Part shown: piece after piece, positions 26,068-36,689 of the stretch
How the letters are laid out: the number at the start of each line of letters is the position of its first letter
Position numbering within the stretch: position 1 is the stretch's first letter
Source: an uncultured Lachnospiraceae bacterium
Lineage (GTDB): Bacteria > Bacillota > Clostridia > Lachnospirales > Lachnospiraceae
Assembly (NCBI GenBank): GCA_947165025.1
Contig: CAMUYQ010000001.1
Coordinates: 1 to 64,000 of the forward strand
Direction of reading: 5' to 3'
Length of the DNA stretch: 64,000 nt
Made by a program: the position numbers and the translations under genes
Notes under the pieces: model-generated
Seen by the model: the letters and a program-made list of their open reading frames with translations, nothing else
What the model was told of the DNA's origin: nothing
Databases searched by the model: none

Positions 26068-26403
26068 ATGATCACTTTGGAATCACTTAAACAGTTCGGC
26101 GCCGATACGGACACCGGCCTTGCGCGATGCATGGGAAACGAGGCACTTTATTTAAGACTTGTCGGATCGGTTGTGACAGAGGAAGGATTTGAAAAGCTCG
26201 GGGAGTTGCTGAACAGCAAAGATCTTGATGCGGCTTTTGAAACCGCGCATGCTCTCAAAGGTGTGCTCGGTAATCTGTCGCTGACTCCGCTTTTTGATCA
26301 GGCTTCCCTGATAACCGAACTTCTGCGTTCAGGAACCGATACGGATTATTCGGAAATGTATTCAAAGCTAATGGAGGAAAAGAGAAGACTTGAGCAGCTT
26401 TGA
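26068..26403 (+). CDS. Stand-alone Hpt phosphotransfer protein
   Basis: 111 aa from ATG 26068, chosen for aaaggagat 7 nt upstream. It is a single Hpt four-helix domain with the phospho-acceptor His in AHALKGVLGNLSL. It passes phosphate between receiver domains in multistep relays. Its end overlaps the TTG start of the hybrid kinase by 14 nt, so the two are made together. Confidence 0.88.
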   Translation: MITLESLKQFGADTDTGLARCMGNEALYLRLVGSVVTEEGFEKLGELLNSKDLDAAFETAHALKGVLGNLSLTPLFDQASLITELLRSGTDTDYSEMYSKLMEEKRRLEQL

Positions 26404-29400
26404 TGATAATCTGTTCACAAAGCATTCTTCCAAGAGAAGGAGCGGGATCATTCAGGCGGCCATCGTAGGCAGCCTTATTGTTGCCGCTATCCTTATAGTT
26501 GGTACTATCGTGACCGGTAAGAGTGCCAGCCGCGATGTCGAAAAAGCTGTCAGGAACGTAAGCCTTCTGTACCTTGATGAGCTTGCCGGCAGACGTGAAC
26601 AGGTCGTTGCATCTTCACTTGAAGGTCATATCACTGATATGGATGTGGCGATAGGACTCATTGAAAAGAATGATCTTGCGAGCATCGAGAACCTGCAGGC
26701 GTATCAGCTCAGGATGAAGACGCTTTTCGGTCTTGAGAAGTTCGCATTTGTCGATGAGAACGGTCTCATATACACATCGCGCGGCACGAGAAAAGATATC
26801 GATCAGTATGATTTTGACTATAATGCGCTTTCCGGTCCTTCGATATCGATAAAGGATTCCGGCATCAATGACAAGAAGGTGATCATAGCGGTTCCTGTTG
26901 ACAGGCTTAATCTGGCGGGATCTACGCTTATTGCGTGTTTTATGGAGATCAGTATGGACAACTTCCTTGATGAAGTTTCCCTTAAATCCGGTAACAACAG
27001 CACTACATTCTGTAATATCTACAAGCCGAACGGTATGTCGTTCACCGGCCTTGTACTTGGTGGACTGTCAGCGGAGGACAACCTTCTCGGTGCGCTTTCA
27101 CATGCCGAGTATGATGACGGATACAATTACGAAAACGTAAAAATGGATTTCGAAGAAAATCATGGCGGCGTCGTTTCTTTTACCTATAACGGCATAAAGG
27201 AGACATTGAGTTATGTTCCGATACACGGCACGGACTGGATGCTCACGTATCTTATAAGAGAGAGCGTTATAAGTGACCAGATAGATGCGATATCAGCCGG
27301 TATCATTGAGAGAAGCCTGATACTTTCAGTTATTATGACTGTTGTACTGCTTGCTATTTCGGTGTTCATGATCATACAGACAAGACGGGCTGTAAGACTT
27401 GATGCCGAGAGAGAAAATGCCGAAACACTGCAGCAGGAACTTGAGGAAAGAGTAGCGCTGCAGGATGAGCTTCTTGAACAGGAAAAGGCGCGGACGCAGC
27501 AGGACAGCATGATCACCGCACTTGCTTCGGATTACAGGAGCGTATACTATGTCGATCTCGACACCGGCAGGAGCATATGCTACAGGAAAGATGATATTGC
27601 CGAGAACGGAATTGGCCCCGGTGATGAATTCGATTACCGGAAGAAGTTCTCCGAATATGCAAAGACGTTTGTATCCGAAGAGTATCGAGAGGGCTTCCTT
27701 GATTTTATCAGCCCGGATTCTATACGCGAGAATCTTAAAGAGAACAAAATAATAACATACCGTTATCTGACAAACAGAAATGGCGAAGAAGTGTATGAGA
27801 TGATCAGAATGGCCGGTGTACGTCATCCGAAGGACCGCGATGACCACATCATTCATGCGATAGGCGCGGGATTTACCGACATTGATTCCGAAATGAGGGA
27901 GAATCTTGCTAAAAACCAGGCGCTTTCAGATGCGCTTAAGACTGCTGAAGAGTCAAGCCGTGCAAAGACTGCATTTTTGTCCAACATGAGTCATGAGATC
28001 AGAACTCCGATGAATGCGATCATTGGACTTGATTCACTGGCGCTCAGGAAAGAGGAACTTCCGGATGAGACAAGGGAGTATCTTGAGAAGATAGGTGACA
28101 GCGCAAGACATCTGCTCGGACTCATAAATGACATACTTGATATGAGCCGTATTGAATCGGGGCGTATCGTACTTCGTAAAGAAGAGTTCTCATTCCGCGC
28201 GATGCTTGAGCAGATCAATACGATGGTCATGTCCCAGTGTAATGAGAAAGGTCTCAAATACGAGTGCCGGGTAACCGGCGGTGTTGCCGATTACTATATC
28301 GGCGATGATATGAAGCTCAAGCAGATACTGATCAACATCCTGAGCAACGCGATAAAGTTTACCGATGCTCCGGGAGAAGTCAATCTGATGATCGAGAGGA
28401 TGAACGTATTTGACGATCAGAGTACTCTCAAGTTTATGATCAAGGATTCCGGTATCGGAATGGATAAGGCTTTCATCCCGAAGATATTTGAATCCTTCAC
28501 GCAGGAAGATTCGAGCCGTAACAGTAAGTACGGAAGCACGGGCCTTGGCATGGCTATCACGAAGAATATCGTTGAGCTCATGAACGGAACGATATCCGTC
28601 GAATCCGAAAAGGGTGTCGGGACATGCTTTACCATTGTCGTTACACTGAAGAACTGTGAACATGCTAACATTGACAGCAATTATATTAACTATAAGGATC
28701 TGAAGATACTTGTCGTTGATGACGAGGAAGTTGCAGCGGAACACGCAAAGCTTGTTCTTGATGAGGCCGGGATCAGATCGGATATCGCATTGTCGGGGTC
28801 CGAGGCCCTTAATATGCTTGAACTGGCACATACCAAACAGGAACATTACAATCTTGTTCTGCTTGACTGGAAGATGCCCGAAATGGACGGTCTTGAAGTC
28901 GCAAAAGAGATAAGAAAGAGATATGATAATGAGACTACGGTGATCATACTGACATCGTTCAACTGGGACGATATAATGGATGAGGCATTCCGTATCGGTG
29001 TTGACAGTTTCCTTGCAAAGCCGCTCTTTGCGTCTAATGTTGTTGATGAGTTTGAACGCATAGCACGCAAGAACAACATTAGTCTTTTTAAGGAGAAACA
29101 TCACGCTGACCTTAAGGGCAGAAGGATCCTTCTGGCTGAAGATATGGAGATCAATGCCGAGATCATGAAGGAAGTGCTCGCTGTCAAAGAGACGGTTACC
29201 GAGCATGCATCAAACGGTAAGATTGCTCTTGATATGTTTGAAAAGAGCGAAGAGAATTATTATGATGCGATACTGATGGATGTCAGGATGCCTGAGATGG
29301 ATGGACTTGAAGCGACACAGAAGATCAGGGCGCTGAAGAGAGCCGATGCCGGAATTGTTCCGATAATCGCCATGACGGCAAATGCATTTGATGAGGATGT

Positions 29401-29521
29401 TCAGAGATCGCTTCAGGTCGGAATGAACGCTCATCTTTCCAAACCGGTCGAACCGGACAGACTGTATCAGTCTCTTGAAGAACTGATATGGGAAGCCGAT
29501 CAGAAAAGACAGTCGATATAA
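26390..29521 (+). CDS. Hybrid sensor histidine kinase with two receivers
   Basis: 1043 aa. Two membrane helices (about 20-42 and 306-330) bracket a ~260-residue extracytoplasmic sensor that looks Cache-like. Then a coiled coil, a PAS-like region (about 375-510), HisKA with His535 in NMSHEIRTPMN, HATPase with NILSNAIKF and GTGLGMAI-type boxes (STGLGMAIT), receiver 1 (Asp826 in LLDWKMPEMDG) and receiver 2 (Asp964 in ILMDVRMPEMDG). Start is the TTG at 26390, inside the Hpt gene; the site ggagga lies about 12 nt upstream. With its Hpt partner it forms the input side of a phosphorelay. The ligand is unknown. Confidence 0.92.
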   Translation: MSSFDDNLFTKHSSKRRSGIIQAAIVGSLIVAAILIVGTIVTGKSASRDVEKAVRNVSLLYLDELAGRREQVVASSLEGHITDMDVAIGLIEKNDLASIENLQAYQLRMKTLFGLEKFAFVDENGLIYTSRGTRKDIDQYDFDYNALSGPSISIKDSGINDKKVIIAVPVDRLNLAGSTLIACFMEISMDNFLDEVSLKSGNNSTTFCNIYKPNGMSFTGLVLGGLSAEDNLLGALSHAEYDDGYNYENVKMDFEENHGGVVSFTYNGIKETLSYVPIHGTDWMLTYLIRESVISDQIDAISAGIIERSLILSVIMTVVLLAISVFMIIQTRRAVRLDAERENAETLQQELEERVALQDELLEQEKARTQQDSMITALASDYRSVYYVDLDTGRSICYRKDDIAENGIGPGDEFDYRKKFSEYAKTFVSEEYREGFLDFISPDSIRENLKENKIITYRYLTNRNGEEVYEMIRMAGVRHPKDRDDHIIHAIGAGFTDIDSEMRENLAKNQALSDALKTAEESSRAKTAFLSNMSHEIRTPMNAIIGLDSLALRKEELPDETREYLEKIGDSARHLLGLINDILDMSRIESGRIVLRKEEFSFRAMLEQINTMVMSQCNEKGLKYECRVTGGVADYYIGDDMKLKQILINILSNAIKFTDAPGEVNLMIERMNVFDDQSTLKFMIKDSGIGMDKAFIPKIFESFTQEDSSRNSKYGSTGLGMAITKNIVELMNGTISVESEKGVGTCFTIVVTLKNCEHANIDSNYINYKDLKILVVDDEEVAAEHAKLVLDEAGIRSDIALSGSEALNMLELAHTKQEHYNLVLLDWKMPEMDGLEVAKEIRKRYDNETTVIILTSFNWDDIMDEAFRIGVDSFLAKPLFASNVVDEFERIARKNNISLFKEKHHADLKGRRILLAEDMEINAEIMKEVLAVKETVTEHASNGKIALDMFEKSEENYYDAILMDVRMPEMDGLEATQKIRALKRADAGIVPIIAMTANAFDEDVQRSLQVGMNAHLSKPVEPDRLYQSLEELIWEADQKRQSI

Positions 29522-29535
29522 GGAGGAAATCACAA

Positions 29536-30537
29536 ATGAATTTCATTGAGAGCATCAAGGAACGTGCCAAACAGGACGTCAAGACGATAGTTCTGCCGGA
29601 GAGCAACGACAGAAGATCTCTTCTGGCGGCTCATAAAATACTTGAGGAAGGCATCGCGAACCTCATTATGATCGGTAAGGAAGAGAAGATCATGGACGGT
29701 GCAAGATGGCTGGAGCTTGATCTTTCAAAGGTTAAGGTGGTTGATCCCGAAACGAGTGACAAGTTCGAGAATTACGCACAGAAGCTTTTTGAACTTCGTG
29801 AGAAGAAGGGAATGACTCTTGAGAAGGCCAGGGATATACTTCACAAGGATAATCTGATGTGGGGTGTTATGATGGTCAAGATGAACGATGCCGACGGTAT
29901 GGTTGCAGGTGCATGCCATGCAACAGCTGATGTACTGCGTCCTTCGCTTCAGATACTTCGTACGGCACCCGGAGTTGACCTTGTATCGGGATTTTTCATT
30001 CTTGACGTTCCGAACTGTGAATACGGCGAGAACGGAACATTCCTGTTTGCCGACTGCGGACTGAATCAGGATCCGACAGCCGAAGAGCTTGCAAGCATAG
30101 CCAATACATCAGCCAAGAGCTTTACATCACTTGTCGGCGCAAAGCCGATAATCGCGATGCTCTCACATTCGACAAAGGGCAGTGCAAAGCATCCGCTCGT
30201 AGATAAGGTTGCTACCGCAACAGCGATCGCAAAGGAAAAATACCCTCAGCTTCTCCTTGACGGAGAACTGCAGACCGATGCGGCTATCGTTCCTGCGGTT
30301 TCACGTCATAAATCACCCGGTTCCGAGATCGGCGGTATGGCCAACGTACTCATATTCCCGAACCTTGATGCCGGGAACATCGGATACAAGCTTGTTGAGA
30401 GACTTGCCAAGGCCGAAGCATATGGACCGATGCTCCAGGGCCTGTCACGTCCCGTCAACGACCTGTCCCGCGGCTGTGACGCCGACGACATCGTCGGAGT
30501 TGTGGCACTCACCGCAGTCCAGGCTCAGCTCCTGTAA
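29536..30537 (+). CDS. pta: Phosphate acetyltransferase
   Basis: Interconverts acetyl-CoA and acetyl phosphate in acetate fermentation. 333 aa, the short Firmicutes-type Pta without the N-terminal regulatory domain. Start MNFIESIKERAKQ at 29536 has a perfect aaggagg; the longer frame overlaps the kinase gene. Conserved GVMMVKMNDADGMVAGA and QTDAAIVP-type (ELQTDAAIVPAV) stretches are present. No ackA follows. It starts 14 nt after the hybrid kinase stop, so it may share that transcript; acetyl phosphate can feed response regulators, but that link is speculation. Confidence 0.94.
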   Translation: MNFIESIKERAKQDVKTIVLPESNDRRSLLAAHKILEEGIANLIMIGKEEKIMDGARWLELDLSKVKVVDPETSDKFENYAQKLFELREKKGMTLEKARDILHKDNLMWGVMMVKMNDADGMVAGACHATADVLRPSLQILRTAPGVDLVSGFFILDVPNCEYGENGTFLFADCGLNQDPTAEELASIANTSAKSFTSLVGAKPIIAMLSHSTKGSAKHPLVDKVATATAIAKEKYPQLLLDGELQTDAAIVPAVSRHKSPGSEIGGMANVLIFPNLDAGNIGYKLVERLAKAEAYGPMLQGLSRPVNDLSRGCDADDIVGVVALTAVQAQLL

Positions 30538-30557
30538 ATTTTGTCTGTTTCACTTCA

Positions 30558-30696
30558 AAGGTGGACGGGCATAATTGTTCTGAGAAAACCTTGTGAAGGC
30601 GTCCGCGCTTGACGAGGTTTTTTCGAGTCTAGCGCCGGCTACGCCTGAACAGGAGCGGGAGCGTGTTTTCGAGGAATTATTATGCCCGCCCACCTT
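30558..30696 (+). ncRNA. Candidate structured RNA / long imperfect palindrome between pta and rpmF
   Basis: No open frame. The outer arms 30558-30589 and 30665-30696 pair over ~32 positions with only a few mismatches (AAGGTGG / CCACCTT, then CGGGCATAAT / ATTATGCCCG, then GAAAAC / GTTTTC). The inside folds again: AGGCGT (30597-30602) with ACGCCT (30641-30646), GCGCT (30605-30609) with AGCGC (30631-30635), and GAC / GTC with tandem G-A pairs under a T-rich loop. It lies upstream of the rpmF promoter, so it is not an rpmF leader; it may be a pta 3' UTR structure, an independent RNA or a mobile palindrome. No promoter for it is seen. Unknown family; strand not certain. Confidence 0.45.
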
Positions 30697-30721
30697 ATAG
30701 CAGAATTTTGAAAAAATATTA

Positions 30722-30750
30722 TTGACAACAACCGGTAGGATGGGTATACT
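30722..30750 (+). promoter_or_regulatory. Strong sigma-A promoter for rpmF
   Basis: A perfect TTGACA (30722-30727), a 17-bp spacer and TATACT (30745-30750), about 45 bp before the rpmF start. It makes rpmF independent of pta. Confidence 0.85.
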
Positions 30751-30795
30751 ATCCAAGTACGTCTATGAGACATCCTTGAAAAGGAGGTGTTACTA

Positions 30796-30975
30796 ATGTC
30801 AATCTGTCCTAAGAATAAGTCTTCCAAAGGAAGAAGAGATAAAAGAAGAGCAAACTGGAAAATGTCTGCTCCTACACTCGTAAAGTGCAGCAAGTGCGGA
30901 GCGCTTATGGTTCCTCACAGAGTATGCAAGGCCTGCGGCTCTTATAATAAGAAAGAGATCATCAGCCAGGATTGA
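30796..30975 (+). CDS. rpmF: 50S ribosomal protein L32
   Basis: 59 aa from ATG 30796, with a perfect AAGGAGG upstream. Zinc-binding form of L32: Cys31-x2-Cys34 and Cys44-x2-Cys47 (CSKCGALM, CKACGSY), preceded by the basic KSSKGRRDKRRANW stretch. rpmF before plsX is the usual Firmicutes order. The yceD gene that often sits directly before rpmF is not seen here; the folded element occupies that spot. Confidence 0.95.
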   Translation: MSICPKNKSSKGRRDKRRANWKMSAPTLVKCSKCGALMVPHRVCKACGSYNKKEIISQD

Positions 30976-30992
30976 TGCAAATGCTTAAATTA

Positions 30993-31017
30993 CCACGGGT
31001 TTTCCCGTGGTTTTTTT
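30993..31017 (+). terminator. Rho-independent terminator after rpmF
   Basis: ccacggg / cccgtgg with a 4-nt loop and seven T. It separates rpmF from plsX, which has its own promoter. Confidence 0.92.
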
Positions 31018-31031
31018 GTATCTTTTTTTAT

Positions 31032-31060
31032 TTGCTTTTTACGGATATGTCTAGTATAGT
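31032..31060 (+). promoter_or_regulatory. Sigma-A-type promoter for plsX-acpP
   Basis: TTGCTT (31032-31037), 17-bp spacer, TATAGT (31055-31060), about 38 bp before plsX. No FapR-like palindrome was recognised by eye. Confidence 0.6.
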
Positions 31061-31098
31061 AGTATAGGTTTTAAAGACACTGTATTCGGAGACAGGTA

Positions 31099-32109
31099 AT
31101 GGTACACGTTGTACTTGATGCAATGGGCGGTGACAACGCCCCTAATGAAATTGTAAAAGGAGCGGTAACGGCCCTTAATTCGTCTTCAGAGGTTAAGATC
31201 ACACTCTGCGGTAAAGAAGATGCGATAAAGGGCGAACTTGAGGGCAAGGAGTACCCCGAGGACAGGCTCTTCATAGAGAATGCCGATGAGGTCATATCGA
31301 CTGAAGAGGCACCCGTTATGGCGATAAGGCGTAAGAAGGATTCTTCCATAGTAAAGGGAATGAACCTTATCAAGGCCGGACAGGCCGATGCCTTTGTTTC
31401 GGCAGGTTCATCGGGTGCGATACTTGTCGGAGGACAGCTTATCGTCGGCAGGATAAAAGGTGTTGAGCGCCCGCCGCTTGCTCCGCTCATTCCTTCAACG
31501 ACAGAAAGAGGCGTATCGCTTATCATTGACTGCGGTGCGAATGTTGATGCGAGAAGTTCCCATCTCGTACAGTTTGCCAAGATGGGATCGATATATATGG
31601 AACATGTTCTCGGAGTTAAGAATCCGAGAGTTGCGATAGTGAACATCGGAGCTGAGGAAGAGAAGGGCAATATGCTCGTAAAGGAAACATTTCCGCTTCT
31701 GAAGAACTGTCCCGATATCAATTTCATCGGTTCGATCGAAGCACGTGAGATCCCTAACGGCGGTGCGGACGTTATAGTCTGCGAGGCGTTTGTGGGAAAC
31801 GTGATCCTCAAAATGTACGAGGGTGTCGGCAGGATGATGCTCGGTACGATAAAGGGAACTCTTATGAGCAGCCTTCGAGGAAAGATCGGCGGACTTATCA
31901 TCAAGCCTCTCATTAAGGGTGTGGTCAAGACATTTGATGCGACCGAATACGGCGGGGCTCCGCTTCTAGGACTTAACGGTCTTGTTGTAAAGGTTCACGG
32001 CAATGCGACCGAAAAAGAGATCTCCAATGCGATAAAGCAGTGCGAGACATTCAAAACACAGAATATCAGTCAGCGTATCGCCGACAAGATAATAATAAAG
32101 GATGAATAG
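31099..32109 (+). CDS. plsX: Phosphate acyltransferase PlsX
   Basis: Makes acyl-phosphate from acyl-ACP and inorganic phosphate, the first step of phospholipid synthesis by the PlsX/Y route. 336 aa, normal length. Signature start VVLDAMGGDNAPNEIVKGA, with SAGSSGA and DCGANVD further in. acpP follows 14 nt downstream, supplying the acyl carrier. Confidence 0.96.
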   Translation: MVHVVLDAMGGDNAPNEIVKGAVTALNSSSEVKITLCGKEDAIKGELEGKEYPEDRLFIENADEVISTEEAPVMAIRRKKDSSIVKGMNLIKAGQADAFVSAGSSGAILVGGQLIVGRIKGVERPPLAPLIPSTTERGVSLIIDCGANVDARSSHLVQFAKMGSIYMEHVLGVKNPRVAIVNIGAEEEKGNMLVKETFPLLKNCPDINFIGSIEAREIPNGGADVIVCEAFVGNVILKMYEGVGRMMLGTIKGTLMSSLRGKIGGLIIKPLIKGVVKTFDATEYGGAPLLGLNGLVVKVHGNATEKEISNAIKQCETFKTQNISQRIADKIIIKDE

Positions 32110-32123
32110 AAAGGGTAGTTGAA

Positions 32124-32354
32124 ATGGAACTTGAAAAGCTTAAAAAGATCATCACAGAGGTTCTGAATGTGGATGAGAGCGAGATCACGATGGATACCAA
32201 ATTCATTGATGATCTGGGTGCTGATTCTCTTGATGTTTATCAGATTATTATGGGCGTTGAGGAAGAATTTGACATTGAGATAGATGTTGATAACGCTGAA
32301 TCCATCGTGACCGTCGCCGATGCGATCGAGCAGATAAGAGCTGCAATAAGCTGA
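32124..32354 (+). CDS. acpP: Acyl carrier protein
   Basis: 76 aa, acidic four-helix carrier. The 4'-phosphopantetheine attachment site is Ser35 in DLGADSLDV. Clear ribosome site (aagggtagttgaa). The gene is followed by a perfect hairpin that probably limits read-through into rnc. Confidence 0.96.
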   Translation: MELEKLKKIITEVLNVDESEITMDTKFIDDLGADSLDVYQIIMGVEEEFDIEIDVDNAESIVTVADAIEQIRAAIS

Positions 32355-32381
32355 CGGGTTCAACAATTAAGTGTTCGGCTG

Positions 32382-32412
32382 ATAGAGTTCCGGATATGCG
32401 GAACTCTATTTT
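32382..32412 (+). terminator. Hairpin between acpP and rnc (weak terminator or attenuator)
   Basis: An 11-bp perfect stem (atagagttccg / cggaactctat) with a 6-nt loop, followed by only four T in total including the stem edge. It could lower transcription of rnc-smc-ftsY relative to acpP, or process the mRNA. Confidence 0.6.
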
Positions 32413-32427
32413 GAAGTATTGTTAAAC

Positions 32428-33138
32428 ATGAATATTCAGGATGGTTACAAAGAACTGCAGAATCGTATAGGGTATGATTTTCGCGACAGCGCGCGTCTTG
32501 TTAAGGCTCTGTCACACAGTTCATACGTTAACGAGATAAAAGCGGACAGACATGATGACTACGAGCGTACCGAGTTTCTGGGGGATGCCGTTCTTGAGCT
32601 GTCCGTAAGTGAGTTTTTGTACAATGAGAATCCCGACATGAGGGAAGGCGAGATGACAAAGCTTCGCGCATCTCTTGTATGTGAACCGACTCTTGCGTAC
32701 TGTGCAAGGGAAGGTTTTGAACTCGGAAAGTACGTTCTTCTCGGAAAAGGCGAGGATGCATCGGGAGGACGGAGCAGGGATTCGATCATTTCCGACGTTT
32801 TTGAGGCGATCATCGGAGCCATATATCTTGACGGCGGACTTGACTGTGCAAAAGCATTCATCAAACGTTTCCTTCTGACCGATTATGCGAAGAAGATAGA
32901 ATTTGTCGATTCCAAGACTATCCTTCAGGAGTACGCGCAGGATCACGGACTTGCGCTTGAGTATGAGCTCGTTGAGGAAAGAGGTCCGGAACACGACAGG
33001 GAATATGTTATGAGGGCAAAGCTCGGCAATGATATAAGTGAGACAGGAGTTGCAAAGAGCAAAAAAGCCGCACAGCAGAACGCCGCATATTCCATATTGA
33101 AGAAGTACGTTAATACGGAGAGCGATCAATGTATTTAA
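32428..33138 (+). CDS. rnc: Ribonuclease III
   Basis: Cuts double-stranded RNA, including rRNA precursors. 236 aa from ATG 32428 (an in-frame TTG lies 9 nt before). Catalytic domain with the ERTEFLGDAVLEL signature and the second acidic site DVFEAIIGAIYLDGG; the C-terminal dsRNA-binding domain ends with SKKAAQQNAAYSILKK. Only a weak ribosome site precedes it, close after the hairpin. The 3' end overlaps smc by 10 nt. Confidence 0.96.
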   Translation: MNIQDGYKELQNRIGYDFRDSARLVKALSHSSYVNEIKADRHDDYERTEFLGDAVLELSVSEFLYNENPDMREGEMTKLRASLVCEPTLAYCAREGFELGKYVLLGKGEDASGGRSRDSIISDVFEAIIGAIYLDGGLDCAKAFIKRFLLTDYAKKIEFVDSKTILQEYAQDHGLALEYELVEERGPEHDREYVMRAKLGNDISETGVAKSKKAAQQNAAYSILKKYVNTESDQCI

Positions 33139-36100
33139 AAAATATAGAAGTGCAGGGATTTAAGTCCTTTGCCAACAAGATCAATTTCGAATTTCATAAC
33201 GGGATCACCGCTATCGTAGGCCCTAACGGCTCGGGTAAGAGTAACGTTGCCGATGCGGTCAGATGGGTGCTCGGTGAGCAGAGCGCAAAGCAGCTTCGCG
33301 GATCTTCGATGCAGGACGTTATCTTCTCGGGTACAGAGATGCGTAAGCCCATGGGTTATGCCTATGTTGCGATCACGCTTGATAATTCCGACCATGCGCT
33401 TCCTATAGATTACGAGGAAGTGACCGTTGCAAGACGGGTGTACCGCTCGGGTGAGAGCGAATATCTTATAAACGGTGCAACATGCCGGCTGAAGGATGTT
33501 GCCGAGATGTTTTACGATACCGGTATCGGTAAAGAAGGATACTCGATCATCGGGCAGGGCCAGATCGACAGGATCCTTTCGGGTAAGCCCGAAGAGCGAA
33601 GAGAACTGTTCGACGAGGCTGCCGGTATAGTCAAGTTCAAGAGAAGAAAAGCGACCGCGCTCAAAAAGCTGGAGCAGGAGCGCGCAAATCTTGTACGTGT
33701 TTCCGATATACTTGCAGAACTTGAGCGCCAGGTTGAACCGCTTGAGAAGCAGTCTGCGGTTGCAAGGAACTATCTGCAGATGAAGGAAGAACTTAAGAAG
33801 CTCGATGTCAACATCTTCCTCCTTGATAATGAGCGTTCAAAGGAAGAACTTGCAGAGTGCGAGAAGAAGATTGAGGTTGCAGAGAACGACCTTAAGAATG
33901 CTAACGAAGAGAACGAGAGCATCAGGGAAGAGTACAGCGATGTCGAAAAGAAGATCGCCGAACTTGATGCCGGAATAGAAGAAAAGCGTGCAAAGCTTTC
34001 CGAAACAAGCCTTCTTAAAGAAAAGCTCGAGGGCGAGATCAACGTCCTGAATGAGAAGATCAATTCGGCAAACATTTCGCGCGAGCATTTTGATACGCGT
34101 CAGAAAGCGCTCACTGATGATATCGCTGCCAAGGAAGCTGAGTGCGAGAGACTGTCAAAAGAGCAGGAAACTCTGGATACAGAAACGAATGAACTTATCA
34201 AAAAGCGTGACGAGGCTGTTGCAGAACTCGAAGATCTTGTAAAGCAGATCGAGGAGCAGAACGATATCGTCGAGACTAACAAGAATCTCATCATCACGCT
34301 CCTTAACAACCGTGCCGGTATACAGTCAAAGCTCGGTCAGTTCGGAACGATGCTCGAGCAGAACAAGATAAGAAAGGCTGAGATACAGAGCAAGCTCATC
34401 AGCGCCAAGAGTGAGGAAGTGGAGCAGGAGAAGCTCGTCAATTCACTGACGCTTGAGCTTAATACGATATGCTCTGATATCGCTTCGATCGATCAGAAGA
34501 AAGAGTCGATGGAAGAGAAGCTGGGCGATTTTCGCTCCAAGCTGGAGGAACTCGACACAAAGCTCGGCGAAGCCCAGATGGCTTATCACGGGATAAAATC
34601 AAAGCTCGACACTTTAAAGAACCTTGCGGAGCGTTATGACGGATACGGAAGCAGCATTAAGCGTGTCATGGAGCAGAAGAGCAAGATGGCGGGCATTATC
34701 GGCGTTGTTGCCGATATCATGAAGGTCGATCCGAAGTACGAGACCGCGATCGAGACGGCACTTGGCGGAAACATCCAGAACATCGTTACAAAGGATGAGG
34801 AAGTTGCCAAGAAGCTTATAAAATACCTTAAGGAAAACAAGGCCGGACGTGCTACGTTCCTGCCTCTTACGACTACAAGGAACAGAGGCGAGTTCGACAA
34901 GCCCGAAGTCAGGAATGCAAAGGGCTTTATCGGGATGGCCAACGAACTTGTGTCTGCAAAGAGCGAATACGATGATGTTATCAGCCAGCTTCTCGGTGCG
35001 ATCATCGTCATCGATACCGTAGAGAATGCGTTGAAGCTTGCAAAGGAGTATAACTACACGCTCAGGATAGTCACGCTTGAGGGCGAATATCTGACACCCG
35101 GAGGCGCACTTGCCGGAGGATCGTTCAAGAACGCTTCCAATCTTCTCGGAAGGAAGCGTGAGATAGATGCGCTTGAGGAAGAGGCAAAGAAGGGCCTTAA
35201 GAGCATGGAGTCGATCATGGATGAGATCGACGCAACAAAGGATGAGCGCGCGAAAGTCCGTGAAGACATAGAAGAATTCAAGGCAAAACTGCAGGAGTTG
35301 TATATCCAGCAGAACACCGCACAGATGAACGTTGATGCTGCAAAGGCTCACATGGATGAGATGACCGAGCAGCATGCGAACCTGCTTACTGAGTTTGAAC
35401 AGATGGAAGAAGCCGAGAAAGGCATCACAACCGATCAGGACAGCGCCAAGGAAGAACTCGCGCAATCAGAAAAACGTGAGGCCGAGCTTAATGAAGCGAT
35501 CAGCGAAGCCGGTGAAAAACTCGAAAAACTGCGTGATGTTGAGAACGAAAAGGTTCTTGCCAAGTCGGATCTTGATCTTGAAGTAACAAGAGAAAAGCAG
35601 AAGCAGGATTTTGCAAAGCAGAACGTGGAAAGAGTACGTGCCGAGATCGAGCACCTGCGCAAGGAATCCGAAGAGATCGCTAAGTCCGTTAAGGATACGG
35701 AAGAAGAGATAAAGGAAAAACAGGAAAACATCGCAAAGATCAGGGAGACGATCGAAGCGAGCGCAACAAGCGCAGATGAGAATGAGATCGCCCTTAATGA
35801 AGCGATAAAGACAAAAGAAGAATTTGCCGAGAAGCAAAAATCATTCTTCGACAAGCGTGAAGCCATCTCGAAGAAGCTGGCAGATCTTGATAAGGAACTT
35901 TACCGCCTGAACGCACAGAAGGAAAAGTGTGAAAACGAGCAGGAAGGCCGCATCAACTACATGTGGAACGAATACGAGATCACCCTCTCTCATGCGGCGG
36001 AGCTTCGTGACGAAACACTTACCGATCAGGCTTCAATGAGAAAGAACATACACAGACTTCGTGACGAGATCAGAAAGCTTGGTGACGTTAACGTCAATGC

Positions 36101-36689
36101 CATTGAGGATTACAAGGTGCTCATGGAACGTTATACGCTGACGAAGACGCAGCATGACGACGTTGTCAAAGCGGAGCAGGATCTTATCGGAATACTTGAA
36201 GAACTCGATAAGCTCATGACCACGCAGTTCACGGAGAACTTCAAGCTCATTCAGGAAGAGTTCGACAAGGTGTTCAAGGAACTGTTTGCCGGTGGTAAGG
36301 GTACTCTTGAGATCAATAATGACGAGGATATCCTTGAAGCAGGTATCAACATAAATGCACAGCCGCCCGGAAAGAAACTTCAGAACATGATGATGCTCTC
36401 GGGTGGTGAGAAGGCGCTTGCAGCGATCGCACTTCTGTTTGCGATCCAGAACCTTAAGCCTTCGCCGTTCTGTCTTCTTGATGAGATCGAAGCCGCACTT
36501 GACGAATCAAATGTCGGAAGGTTTGCGGGTTATCTTAATAAGCTTACCGAACATACACAGTTCATAGTTATCACGCACAGACGCGGTACTATGGAAAAAG
36601 CGGACAGACTGTACGGTATCACGATGCAGGAAAAGGGCGTATCCGCGCTTGTTTCCGTCAATCTTATCGATAAGGATCTGGATGACTGA
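33129..36689 (+). CDS. smc: Chromosome segregation protein SMC
   Basis: 1186 aa, full length. Walker A GPNGSGKSNVADAVRW (from residue 31), long coiled coil (about 165-500), flexible hinge (about 510-670 with GALAGGSFKN), second coiled coil (about 675-1030), then the ABC signature LSGGEKALAAIALLFAIQ and Walker B CLLDEIEAALDESN. Works with ScpAB to compact and segregate chromosomes. The rnc-smc-ftsY order is the normal one for Firmicutes; the ATG overlaps the end of rnc. Confidence 0.98.
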   Translation: MYLKNIEVQGFKSFANKINFEFHNGITAIVGPNGSGKSNVADAVRWVLGEQSAKQLRGSSMQDVIFSGTEMRKPMGYAYVAITLDNSDHALPIDYEEVTVARRVYRSGESEYLINGATCRLKDVAEMFYDTGIGKEGYSIIGQGQIDRILSGKPEERRELFDEAAGIVKFKRRKATALKKLEQERANLVRVSDILAELERQVEPLEKQSAVARNYLQMKEELKKLDVNIFLLDNERSKEELAECEKKIEVAENDLKNANEENESIREEYSDVEKKIAELDAGIEEKRAKLSETSLLKEKLEGEINVLNEKINSANISREHFDTRQKALTDDIAAKEAECERLSKEQETLDTETNELIKKRDEAVAELEDLVKQIEEQNDIVETNKNLIITLLNNRAGIQSKLGQFGTMLEQNKIRKAEIQSKLISAKSEEVEQEKLVNSLTLELNTICSDIASIDQKKESMEEKLGDFRSKLEELDTKLGEAQMAYHGIKSKLDTLKNLAERYDGYGSSIKRVMEQKSKMAGIIGVVADIMKVDPKYETAIETALGGNIQNIVTKDEEVAKKLIKYLKENKAGRATFLPLTTTRNRGEFDKPEVRNAKGFIGMANELVSAKSEYDDVISQLLGAIIVIDTVENALKLAKEYNYTLRIVTLEGEYLTPGGALAGGSFKNASNLLGRKREIDALEEEAKKGLKSMESIMDEIDATKDERAKVREDIEEFKAKLQELYIQQNTAQMNVDAAKAHMDEMTEQHANLLTEFEQMEEAEKGITTDQDSAKEELAQSEKREAELNEAISEAGEKLEKLRDVENEKVLAKSDLDLEVTREKQKQDFAKQNVERVRAEIEHLRKESEEIAKSVKDTEEEIKEKQENIAKIRETIEASATSADENEIALNEAIKTKEEFAEKQKSFFDKREAISKKLADLDKELYRLNAQKEKCENEQEGRINYMWNEYEITLSHAAELRDETLTDQASMRKNIHRLRDEIRKLGDVNVNAIEDYKVLMERYTLTKTQHDDVVKAEQDLIGILEELDKLMTTQFTENFKLIQEEFDKVFKELFAGGKGTLEINNDEDILEAGININAQPPGKKLQNMMMLSGGEKALAAIALLFAIQNLKPSPFCLLDEIEAALDESNVGRFAGYLNKLTEHTQFIVITHRRGTMEKADRLYGITMQEKGVSALVSVNLIDKDLDD

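Follow-up and report, generated by a model that had tools for sequence, protein, structure and literature searches.

The intergenic region between pta and rpmF in an uncultured Lachnospiraceae bacterium contains one member of a large set of structured palindromic repeats. We favour, with moderate confidence, the reading that these are non-autonomous dispersed repeats of Lachnospiraceae, similar to REP, ERIC and Correia elements, in which one hairpin lies inside another, the folded strand is recognised, and the arms are kept by template switching. The conserved core, ~100 nucleotides long, folds as a three-way junction that has a GNRA hairpin and tandem G-A loops, together with a U.U mismatch seen in 37/37 aligned copies from the same genome (hereafter, own copies). 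The long outer stem that surrounds the core differs in sequence by site, yet is self-complementary. Copies are dispersed and patchy, occur in either orientation and show no target duplication. Within a class-wide sample, the repeat is restricted to Lachnospiraceae, with no match outside the family.

The element between pta and rpmF

Positions in Table 1 refer to the window, which is the whole stretch of 64,000 nucleotides that was analysed.

Table 1. Positions, strand and evidence for the parts of the element and the adjacent promoter-like site
Feature	Position	Strand	Evidence
Whole element (palindromic repeat)	30558..30696	+ (strand with GNRA fold)	Fold; BLASTN; R1 match at 30569-30688
P1 5' arm, locus-specific sequence	30558..30581	+	Read and folded; varies between copies
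P1 3' arm, complementary to 5' arm	30673..30696	+	Fold; compensating changes between copies
Tandem G-A mismatch closing P1	30582..30583 (5' side), 30671-30672 (3' side)	+	GA/GA in 30/37 own copies
Inner P1 strand GAAAAC	30584..30589, pairs with 30665-30670 (GUUUUC)	+	AAAA/UUUU in 37/37; flanking pairs covary
P2 hairpin	30590..30653	+	Fold and own-copy alignment
U.U mismatch in P2	U30610/U30630	+	UU/UA in 37/37 own copies
Tandem G-A in P2	30614-30615/30625-30626	+	GA/GA in 32/37 own copies
P2 loop G(U)6	30617-30623	+	Fold
P3 hairpin GC-GGGA-GC at the three-way junction, interpreted as a GNRA tetraloop	30655..30662	+	G-N-R-A in 37/37 own aligned copies
rpmF promoter-like site, outside the element: TTGACA (30722-30727), 17 bases, TATACT (30745-30750)	30722..30750	+	Read; similar site in relatives without the element

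The element lies 3' of the stop codon of a phosphotransacetylase-like gene (pta) and 25 bases 5' of the -35 box of the rpmF promoter-like site; the names pta and rpmF were assigned by eye from translations. Genes resembling pta, rpmF, plsX and those for an acyl carrier, rnc and smc follow one another at 29536-36689, all on the + strand, and a 1043-aa ORF directly upstream of pta (26390-29521) resembles a hybrid histidine kinase with receiver domains, again as named by eye.

The RNA fold of positions 30540-30720 reaches -76.2 kcal/mol, which is far beyond that of shuffled sequences (-48.9, sd 3.8; z -7.1), none of which was as good (0/200). A preliminary description of this DNA had proposed strong secondary structure, and direct reading of the sequence places the arms at the coordinates given there. 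The pairings listed there, AGGCGT/ACGCCT and GCGCT/AGCGC, are also present together with the G-A pairs, and the same fold is kept in the 37 aligned own copies. For P3, folding programs favour a neighbouring register, GCG-NRAG-CGC, that is shifted by one.

A location 3' of the pta stop codon would suit an ordinary intrinsic terminator of that gene or a palindrome formed by chance. However, no T-run follows directly 3' of the stem, where the sequence past 30696 is ATAGCAGAATTTTG, and there are many homologous copies. The z-score of the fold and the copies detected both by BLASTN and by the covariance model R1 refute this explanation, whose probability we consider negligible.

The element had also been thought to take the place of yceD, but this proved wrong. 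In all six near relatives in which the site could be read (G016, G006, G001, G021, G026 and G031), pta is followed by the rpmF promoter, and neither a gene nor the element lies in the gap. The search motif did not detect rpmF in G011, G033, G008, G023 and G004, and another gene lies upstream in G019. plsX was located in 36/37 genomes of the genus, and the plsX-carrying contigs of the other genus genomes contain no R1 match, as compared by eye and with contig breaks that could hide some. The rpmF promoter, earlier called perfect, is more exactly near-consensus (TTGACA-17-TATACT), and its reported distance of 25 bases from the element is correct. Because the relatives that could be read have no element here, and because sense and antisense copies are equally frequent (see below), a pta-specific role, for example as a 3' UTR stabiliser, is unlikely. 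Any effect on pta or rpmF would be incidental, amounting at most to a stable stem at the 3' end of pta mRNA, which might block exonucleases or undergo cutting by RNase III.

Fold and covariation of the core

The 37 own copies were aligned without structure (alignment A1), and R1 was built from these. Two-sided changes occur at 27/39 pairs of A1, and 93.2% of its cells are paired, vs 75.5% in shuffled and at most 51.8% in slid controls. For alignment A5, which was fitted to the structure model and leans towards it, two-sided changes occur at 35/39 pairs, and 93.8% of cells are paired, vs 65.5% (shuffled) and at most 47.4% (slid). Covariation analysis had been proposed as a check on the fold, and it shows that relatives have not lost the base pairing but preserve it through compensating changes.

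The P3 loop conforms to GNRA in 127/132 distinct copies, with a purine as the third base in all 127. One of the five other copies has GCGC, and four are without such a hairpin aligned there. GNRA is also found in 20/20 copies from six genomes of other genera. Own copies in A1 have 102 G-U cells vs 16 A-C cells, and pairs other than outer columns 3-8 have 96 and 11, an excess in the core that rests on few, partly inherited positions. Outer columns 3-8 are without such an excess (6 G-U vs 5 A-C cells).

Copy subtypes differ in P2. Extra hairpins lie within the P2 apical loop at L137, L173 and L183 (G021), L134 and L158 (Mgla MAG) and L144 (UBA7076), and the structure therefore seems to enlarge as new hairpins are set into the loops of existing ones. 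At L126:240-430 in G027, the apical hairpin module is present alone, with four units in a row.

The preliminary description could name no RNA family that fits, and this agrees with searches of Rfam 15, in which neither the element nor six loci with other copies matched anything at gathering score. The best relaxed match within the element is to a plastid 3' UTR hairpin (E 0.076; 21.2 bits vs 51.5 needed), and the only one for the six loci is to IsrM (E 0.5), outside the element. Like the structured families in Rfam, the element has a covarying fold with a GNRA loop, but it scores below every gathering threshold. We did not find a description of the element in the open-licence papers searched. 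The idea of an undescribed RNA is supported as regards a structured sequence, given the GNRA loop, the G-U excess, the covariation of the core and the lack of an Rfam score, but not as regards an RNA of a single locus.

Copies and distribution

A BLASTN search of the own genome (2.70 Mb, 20 contigs), suggested earlier as a way to reveal multiple copies, yielded 46 matches to the element at E<=10 and 43 at E<1e-3, some of which are pieces of one copy. R1 identifies 46 places at E<1e-9, and two more at E 0.09-0.12. These 46 scattered copies make the element a dispersed palindrome, and in this respect the earlier term "MITE-like palindrome" is apt; as to target duplications, it is not (see below).

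In the genus, 23/37 genomes are R1-positive at E 0.01 including the own genome (22/36 others, some weakly), with 0-46 copies each, and 14/37 have no R1 match. All 12 near relatives, whose PlsX is 84-89% identical, are positive, with 1 to 25 matches each. Among the remaining 24 genomes, 10 are positive, several of them weakly. A diverged type is found in the more distant half of the genus and, at a few sites, in the near half. Some of the weak matches, in G027 and G036, are arrays of the apical hairpin and not whole elements.

A second model, R2, was built from 60 genus copies only. In the taxonomic family, R2 matched 153/397 genomes and 136/334 genera at E 1e-5. Nine candidates per genome were scored in this search, so copy numbers are lower bounds, and the E-values of both models are rough. 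Matches from the family were inspected as 20 copies from six genomes and as six further loci, with one copy in both; the cut loci L301 and L303 were left out. Matches in the class-wide sample occur in 11/391 genomes, all 11 of them in Lachnospiraceae, and five more genomes of the family are negative. The relatives named by a scan of genome contigs are mostly Lachnospiraceae MAGs, several of which are from rumen samples. Phage and plasmid collections gave no match to the one query searched, and none of three stretches picked up by a pattern scan of viral contigs has an R1 match at E 0.01. A locus in a genome outside the family (L122 in G058; R1 E 1.9e-5) was rejected as a long inverted repeat that is not member-like, and a Mycobacterium locus (L179) is a marginal R1 match with E 0.0046.

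An RNA-like core with a GNRA loop and covariation would also fit a family of stand-alone sRNA genes, each copy being functional and having its own promoter. However, beyond the core the sequence changes from site to site, which makes a conserved upstream promoter unlikely, and such a family would have 46 copies in one genome and none matched in 14 of the 37. We regard this explanation as very improbable.

Gene context and orientation

Genes were called by a simple codon-score script, and called genes that overlap an element by >=25 bp were set aside. Such overlaps are absent for 128/132 copies, whereas three copies lie wholly and one partly inside a called gene. The copies inside called genes at L129:1286-1406, L115:1501-1623 and L156:7455-7574, all in relatives, are either miscalls or rare intragenic copies, and unless the genes were miscalled they speak against a strictly intergenic habit. 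Between co-directional genes, 49 of the 132 copies are in sense and 53 in antisense orientation; 15 copies are between convergent genes, 6 are between divergent genes, and 9 have one uncalled neighbour.

The elements might act in cis on mRNA, by stabilising the upstream message or by being cut by RNase III, and set the relative expression of adjoining operon genes, for example pta/rpmF, pgk/tpiA and scpA/scpB; copies would have spread by duplication and been kept. The very stable fold fits this proposal, as do the occupation of the pgk-tpiA site in 9 genomes and the location of 102/123 elements with both neighbours called between co-directional genes. That share is, however, equal to the background, in which 145/177 gaps of >=15 bp (82%) are co-directional, as counted in 42 loci with element-bearing gaps included and some loci on one contig. 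These loci come from a pattern scan of named genomes, whose 57 stretches were reduced by omitting 11 non-Lachnospiraceae, L179 among them, and 4 under 6 kb. An apparent operon enrichment among own copies (41/46 co-directional, or 28/46 with a cruder gene call) equals background and was dropped.

Sense and antisense copies are similarly frequent (49:53), which argues against a simple cis-acting mRNA element, and those in the own genome are equally well paired (726/849 vs 333/390 Watson-Crick cells). A long stem folds in either transcript, and equal orientation therefore weakens the case for a two-way mRNA stem without excluding it. As the pta-rpmF site is also empty in the relatives read, we consider a cis-acting mRNA element doubtful. 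The neighbours of ten own copies, identified by eye, include pgk/tpiA, scpA/scpB, thyA/folA, metH, and clp- and argS-like genes; they are unrelated, mostly housekeeping genes with no common theme. A riboswitch or other cis-regulatory leader was rejected on account of the balanced orientations and unrelated neighbours.

Outer arms

Cores and arms of the copies in one genome differ greatly in their conservation. Six copies examined in G408 have cores that are 98.7% identical and arms that are 65.7% identical, and the complementarity of an arm is 89.6% with its partner in the same copy vs 66.0% with the arms of other copies. The same four measures are 91.2, 67.3, 78.5 and 63.4% for eight copies in G429, and 97.1, 63.0, 58.8 and 47.3%, with many gaps, for six own type C copies selected by a pattern. 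Inner arm sequence is common to copies within one genome, for example in G429 and G408, and this counts against fully free arms.

When all mismatches are weighted alike, the arms of 127 copies have 61 G-U, 42 A-C, 221 other mismatches and 2047 Watson-Crick pairs. The covariance-model alignment gives the outer arms a G-U excess of 72 to 4, but such counts are biased because cmsearch favours G-U by construction. An unanchored pairing test beyond the model ends gave no signal (10/127 copies above the 95% level), with windows thought too long for short arms, and an anchored arm alignment was used in its place. Judging from the G-U and A-C counts, the core looks strand-specific and RNA-like, a character that the arms show weakly, if at all.

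The 3' arm of L102 (own C8:56675-56794), GGTTCGATTCCCG, resembles a tRNA T-arm, and may hint at the source of some arms.

Ends and mobilising enzymes

For 127 elements, direct repeats in the flanks are no more common than in shuffled partners, and a target-site duplication was not detected by this comparison. We found no terminal inverted repeat common to all own copies, and the outer ends of most copies differ. A GGTG/CACC sequence is near the outer end of 10/46 own copies, all of type A, and of 1/83 copies in relatives; it may be a worn terminal repeat, and it too counts against fully free arms. At the loci L123 and L263 in G036, two apical-hairpin modules each lie between shared outer ends TTCAGAACAG/CTGTTCTGAA, recognised by eye, that look like a true terminal inverted repeat.

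The search for mobilising enzymes covered the Pfam families Y1_Tnp and RVT_1. Y1_Tnp has no match in the own genome or in G023, which are the two copy-richest genomes of the genus, and no RVT_1 reverse transcriptase was found in the own genome. A Y1 transposase is present in 18/37 genus genomes.

A classical MITE or REP would be a deletion derivative of an IS, with ends acted on by an IS200/IS605-type (RAYT) or DDE transposase. Such repeats are expected to be dispersed, mostly intergenic, palindromic and patchy, as observed here, and the GGTG/CACC end and the common ends in G036 point in the same direction. However, this origin is unlikely in view of own copies that as a whole have no common terminal inverted repeat, target duplication that is as in the null, and the lack of Y1_Tnp in the two genomes with most copies. 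Because both the duplication test for a MITE and the Y1 test for REP/RAYT failed, we do not file the element as a member of either.

Back-to-back inverted pairs of the element, ~150 bp apart, occur in the own genome at C5:41189-41308(-)/41340-41459(+), and in G023 at C11:46648(-)/46813(+) and C23:24854(-)/25012(+). A second, smaller two-hairpin repeat, consisting of CAACATC..GATGTCGCC plus CACGATTGC..GCAATC, is nested inside some copies of the element. Its sites are L202:1655-1725 (own C8:103292-103362), L073, L141, L068, L289 and L278, the last of which, upstream of thyA in G031, has the two-hairpin repeat alone. Seven places in the own genome match this repeat, mostly as short pieces.

History of shared sites

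When sites are matched by the resemblance of their called neighbours on both sides, 19 intergenic sites carry the element in at least two genomes, and sharing is highest for pgk-tpiA. Sites common to up to 9 genomes fit old, retained and possibly useful copies as well as they fit mobility. The 79 site-sharing pairs are divided between same (40) and opposite (39) orientation. Arms were compared in 69 pairs from 17 sites, after the removal of two sites at which one genome has two copies, and of one further second copy. Arm similarity reaches the 99% level for unrelated pairs in 12/36 same-orientation pairs and 2/33 inverted pairs. Since the other 31/33 inverted pairs are below this level, they may represent independent insertions at favoured sites.

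At scpA-scpB, G004 and G031 have common arms, CGAATGATTTAT, with the core reversed, and this is the only pair in which inversion of the core in place is clear. The arms upstream of thyA are the same in G004 and G033, but the P2 module differs. At a site where G026 has an element, G031 has arms only, forming a hairpin of 13 perfect base pairs and a 9-nt loop, with no core; deletion explains this hairpin as well as an unfilled target does. G026 and G031 are 92% identical over one 4-kb locus, and an arm block changes from CGTC/GACG to CAAA/TTTG between them, with flanks that are 79-89% identical. Arms and core can thus evolve apart at shared sites, as seen in one inversion, one module exchange and one core-less hairpin. 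The relatives are too diverged to provide a clean empty site, and the core-less hairpin might have arisen by deletion, so that no insertion event as such was seen.

Template switching homogenises the arms of inverted repeats and inverts their spacers (PMC8604942), and is described as able to create and maintain hairpins (PMC8794818). Block-compensated changes and spacer inversions are among the products of inverted-repeat template switching on record (PMC8604942, PMC8794818).

Relation to known repeats and proposed mechanism

The way of working of the element is like that of REP, ERIC and Correia elements. REP sequences are short hairpins, ERIC elements (also IRU) are ~130 bp in length, and Correia elements are associated with a TA duplication. 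An earlier survey reportedly dealt with stem-loop families in 40 genomes.

REP palindromes are intergenic and alternate in orientation within BIMEs (PMC2817692). The present elements are similarly intergenic palindromes, some of them in inverted pairs, but unlike REP/RAYT systems they are ~140 nt long with a three-way junction, and the own genome is without a Y1 transposase. ERIC elements share with them an imperfect palindrome, an intergenic location and a lineage-dependent copy number (PMC10969869). They belong to another lineage, however, whereas the arms here are site-variable, the core has a GNRA loop at a three-way junction, and there is neither a terminal repeat in all copies nor a target-site duplication. 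The Correia (NEMIS) elements of Neisseria are also dispersed palindromes, for which inversion and RNase III cleavage are reported (PMC10969869). According to the same source, Correia elements have terminal inverted repeats at which RNase III cuts; here, in contrast, the arms are mostly locus-specific, with no target-site duplication.

Copies of the Lachnospiraceae element may have spread through recognition of a folded single strand by some factor, and this strand would more likely be RNA than single-stranded DNA. Within a species, the likeness of the cores might be due to gene conversion between copies. During replication, template switching from one arm to the other could maintain their complementarity despite drift, and could also invert the core. 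A bolder version of this mechanism is a tentative possibility. It posits a family-wide, mobile or formerly mobile element that is recognised as folded RNA rather than by DNA ends, with a GNRA three-way-junction core that settles in the loops of hairpins and inverts in place, and a flanking stem that template switching re-creates at every site.

Implications

Roughly two fifths of the genomes sampled from a very common gut and rumen family match a structured element without an Rfam entry. This element offers a test case for the spread of structured repeats that have no recognisable transposon ends, and for how much apparent RNA covariation is a product of DNA template switching, not of selection. 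The core and arms of one molecule seem to show the regimes of selection and of template switching side by side, and the element warns that covariation alone is no proof of a functional RNA. If recognition as folded RNA is the true explanation, the element would represent a new kind of bacterial interspersed element, one without transposon ends or target duplications.
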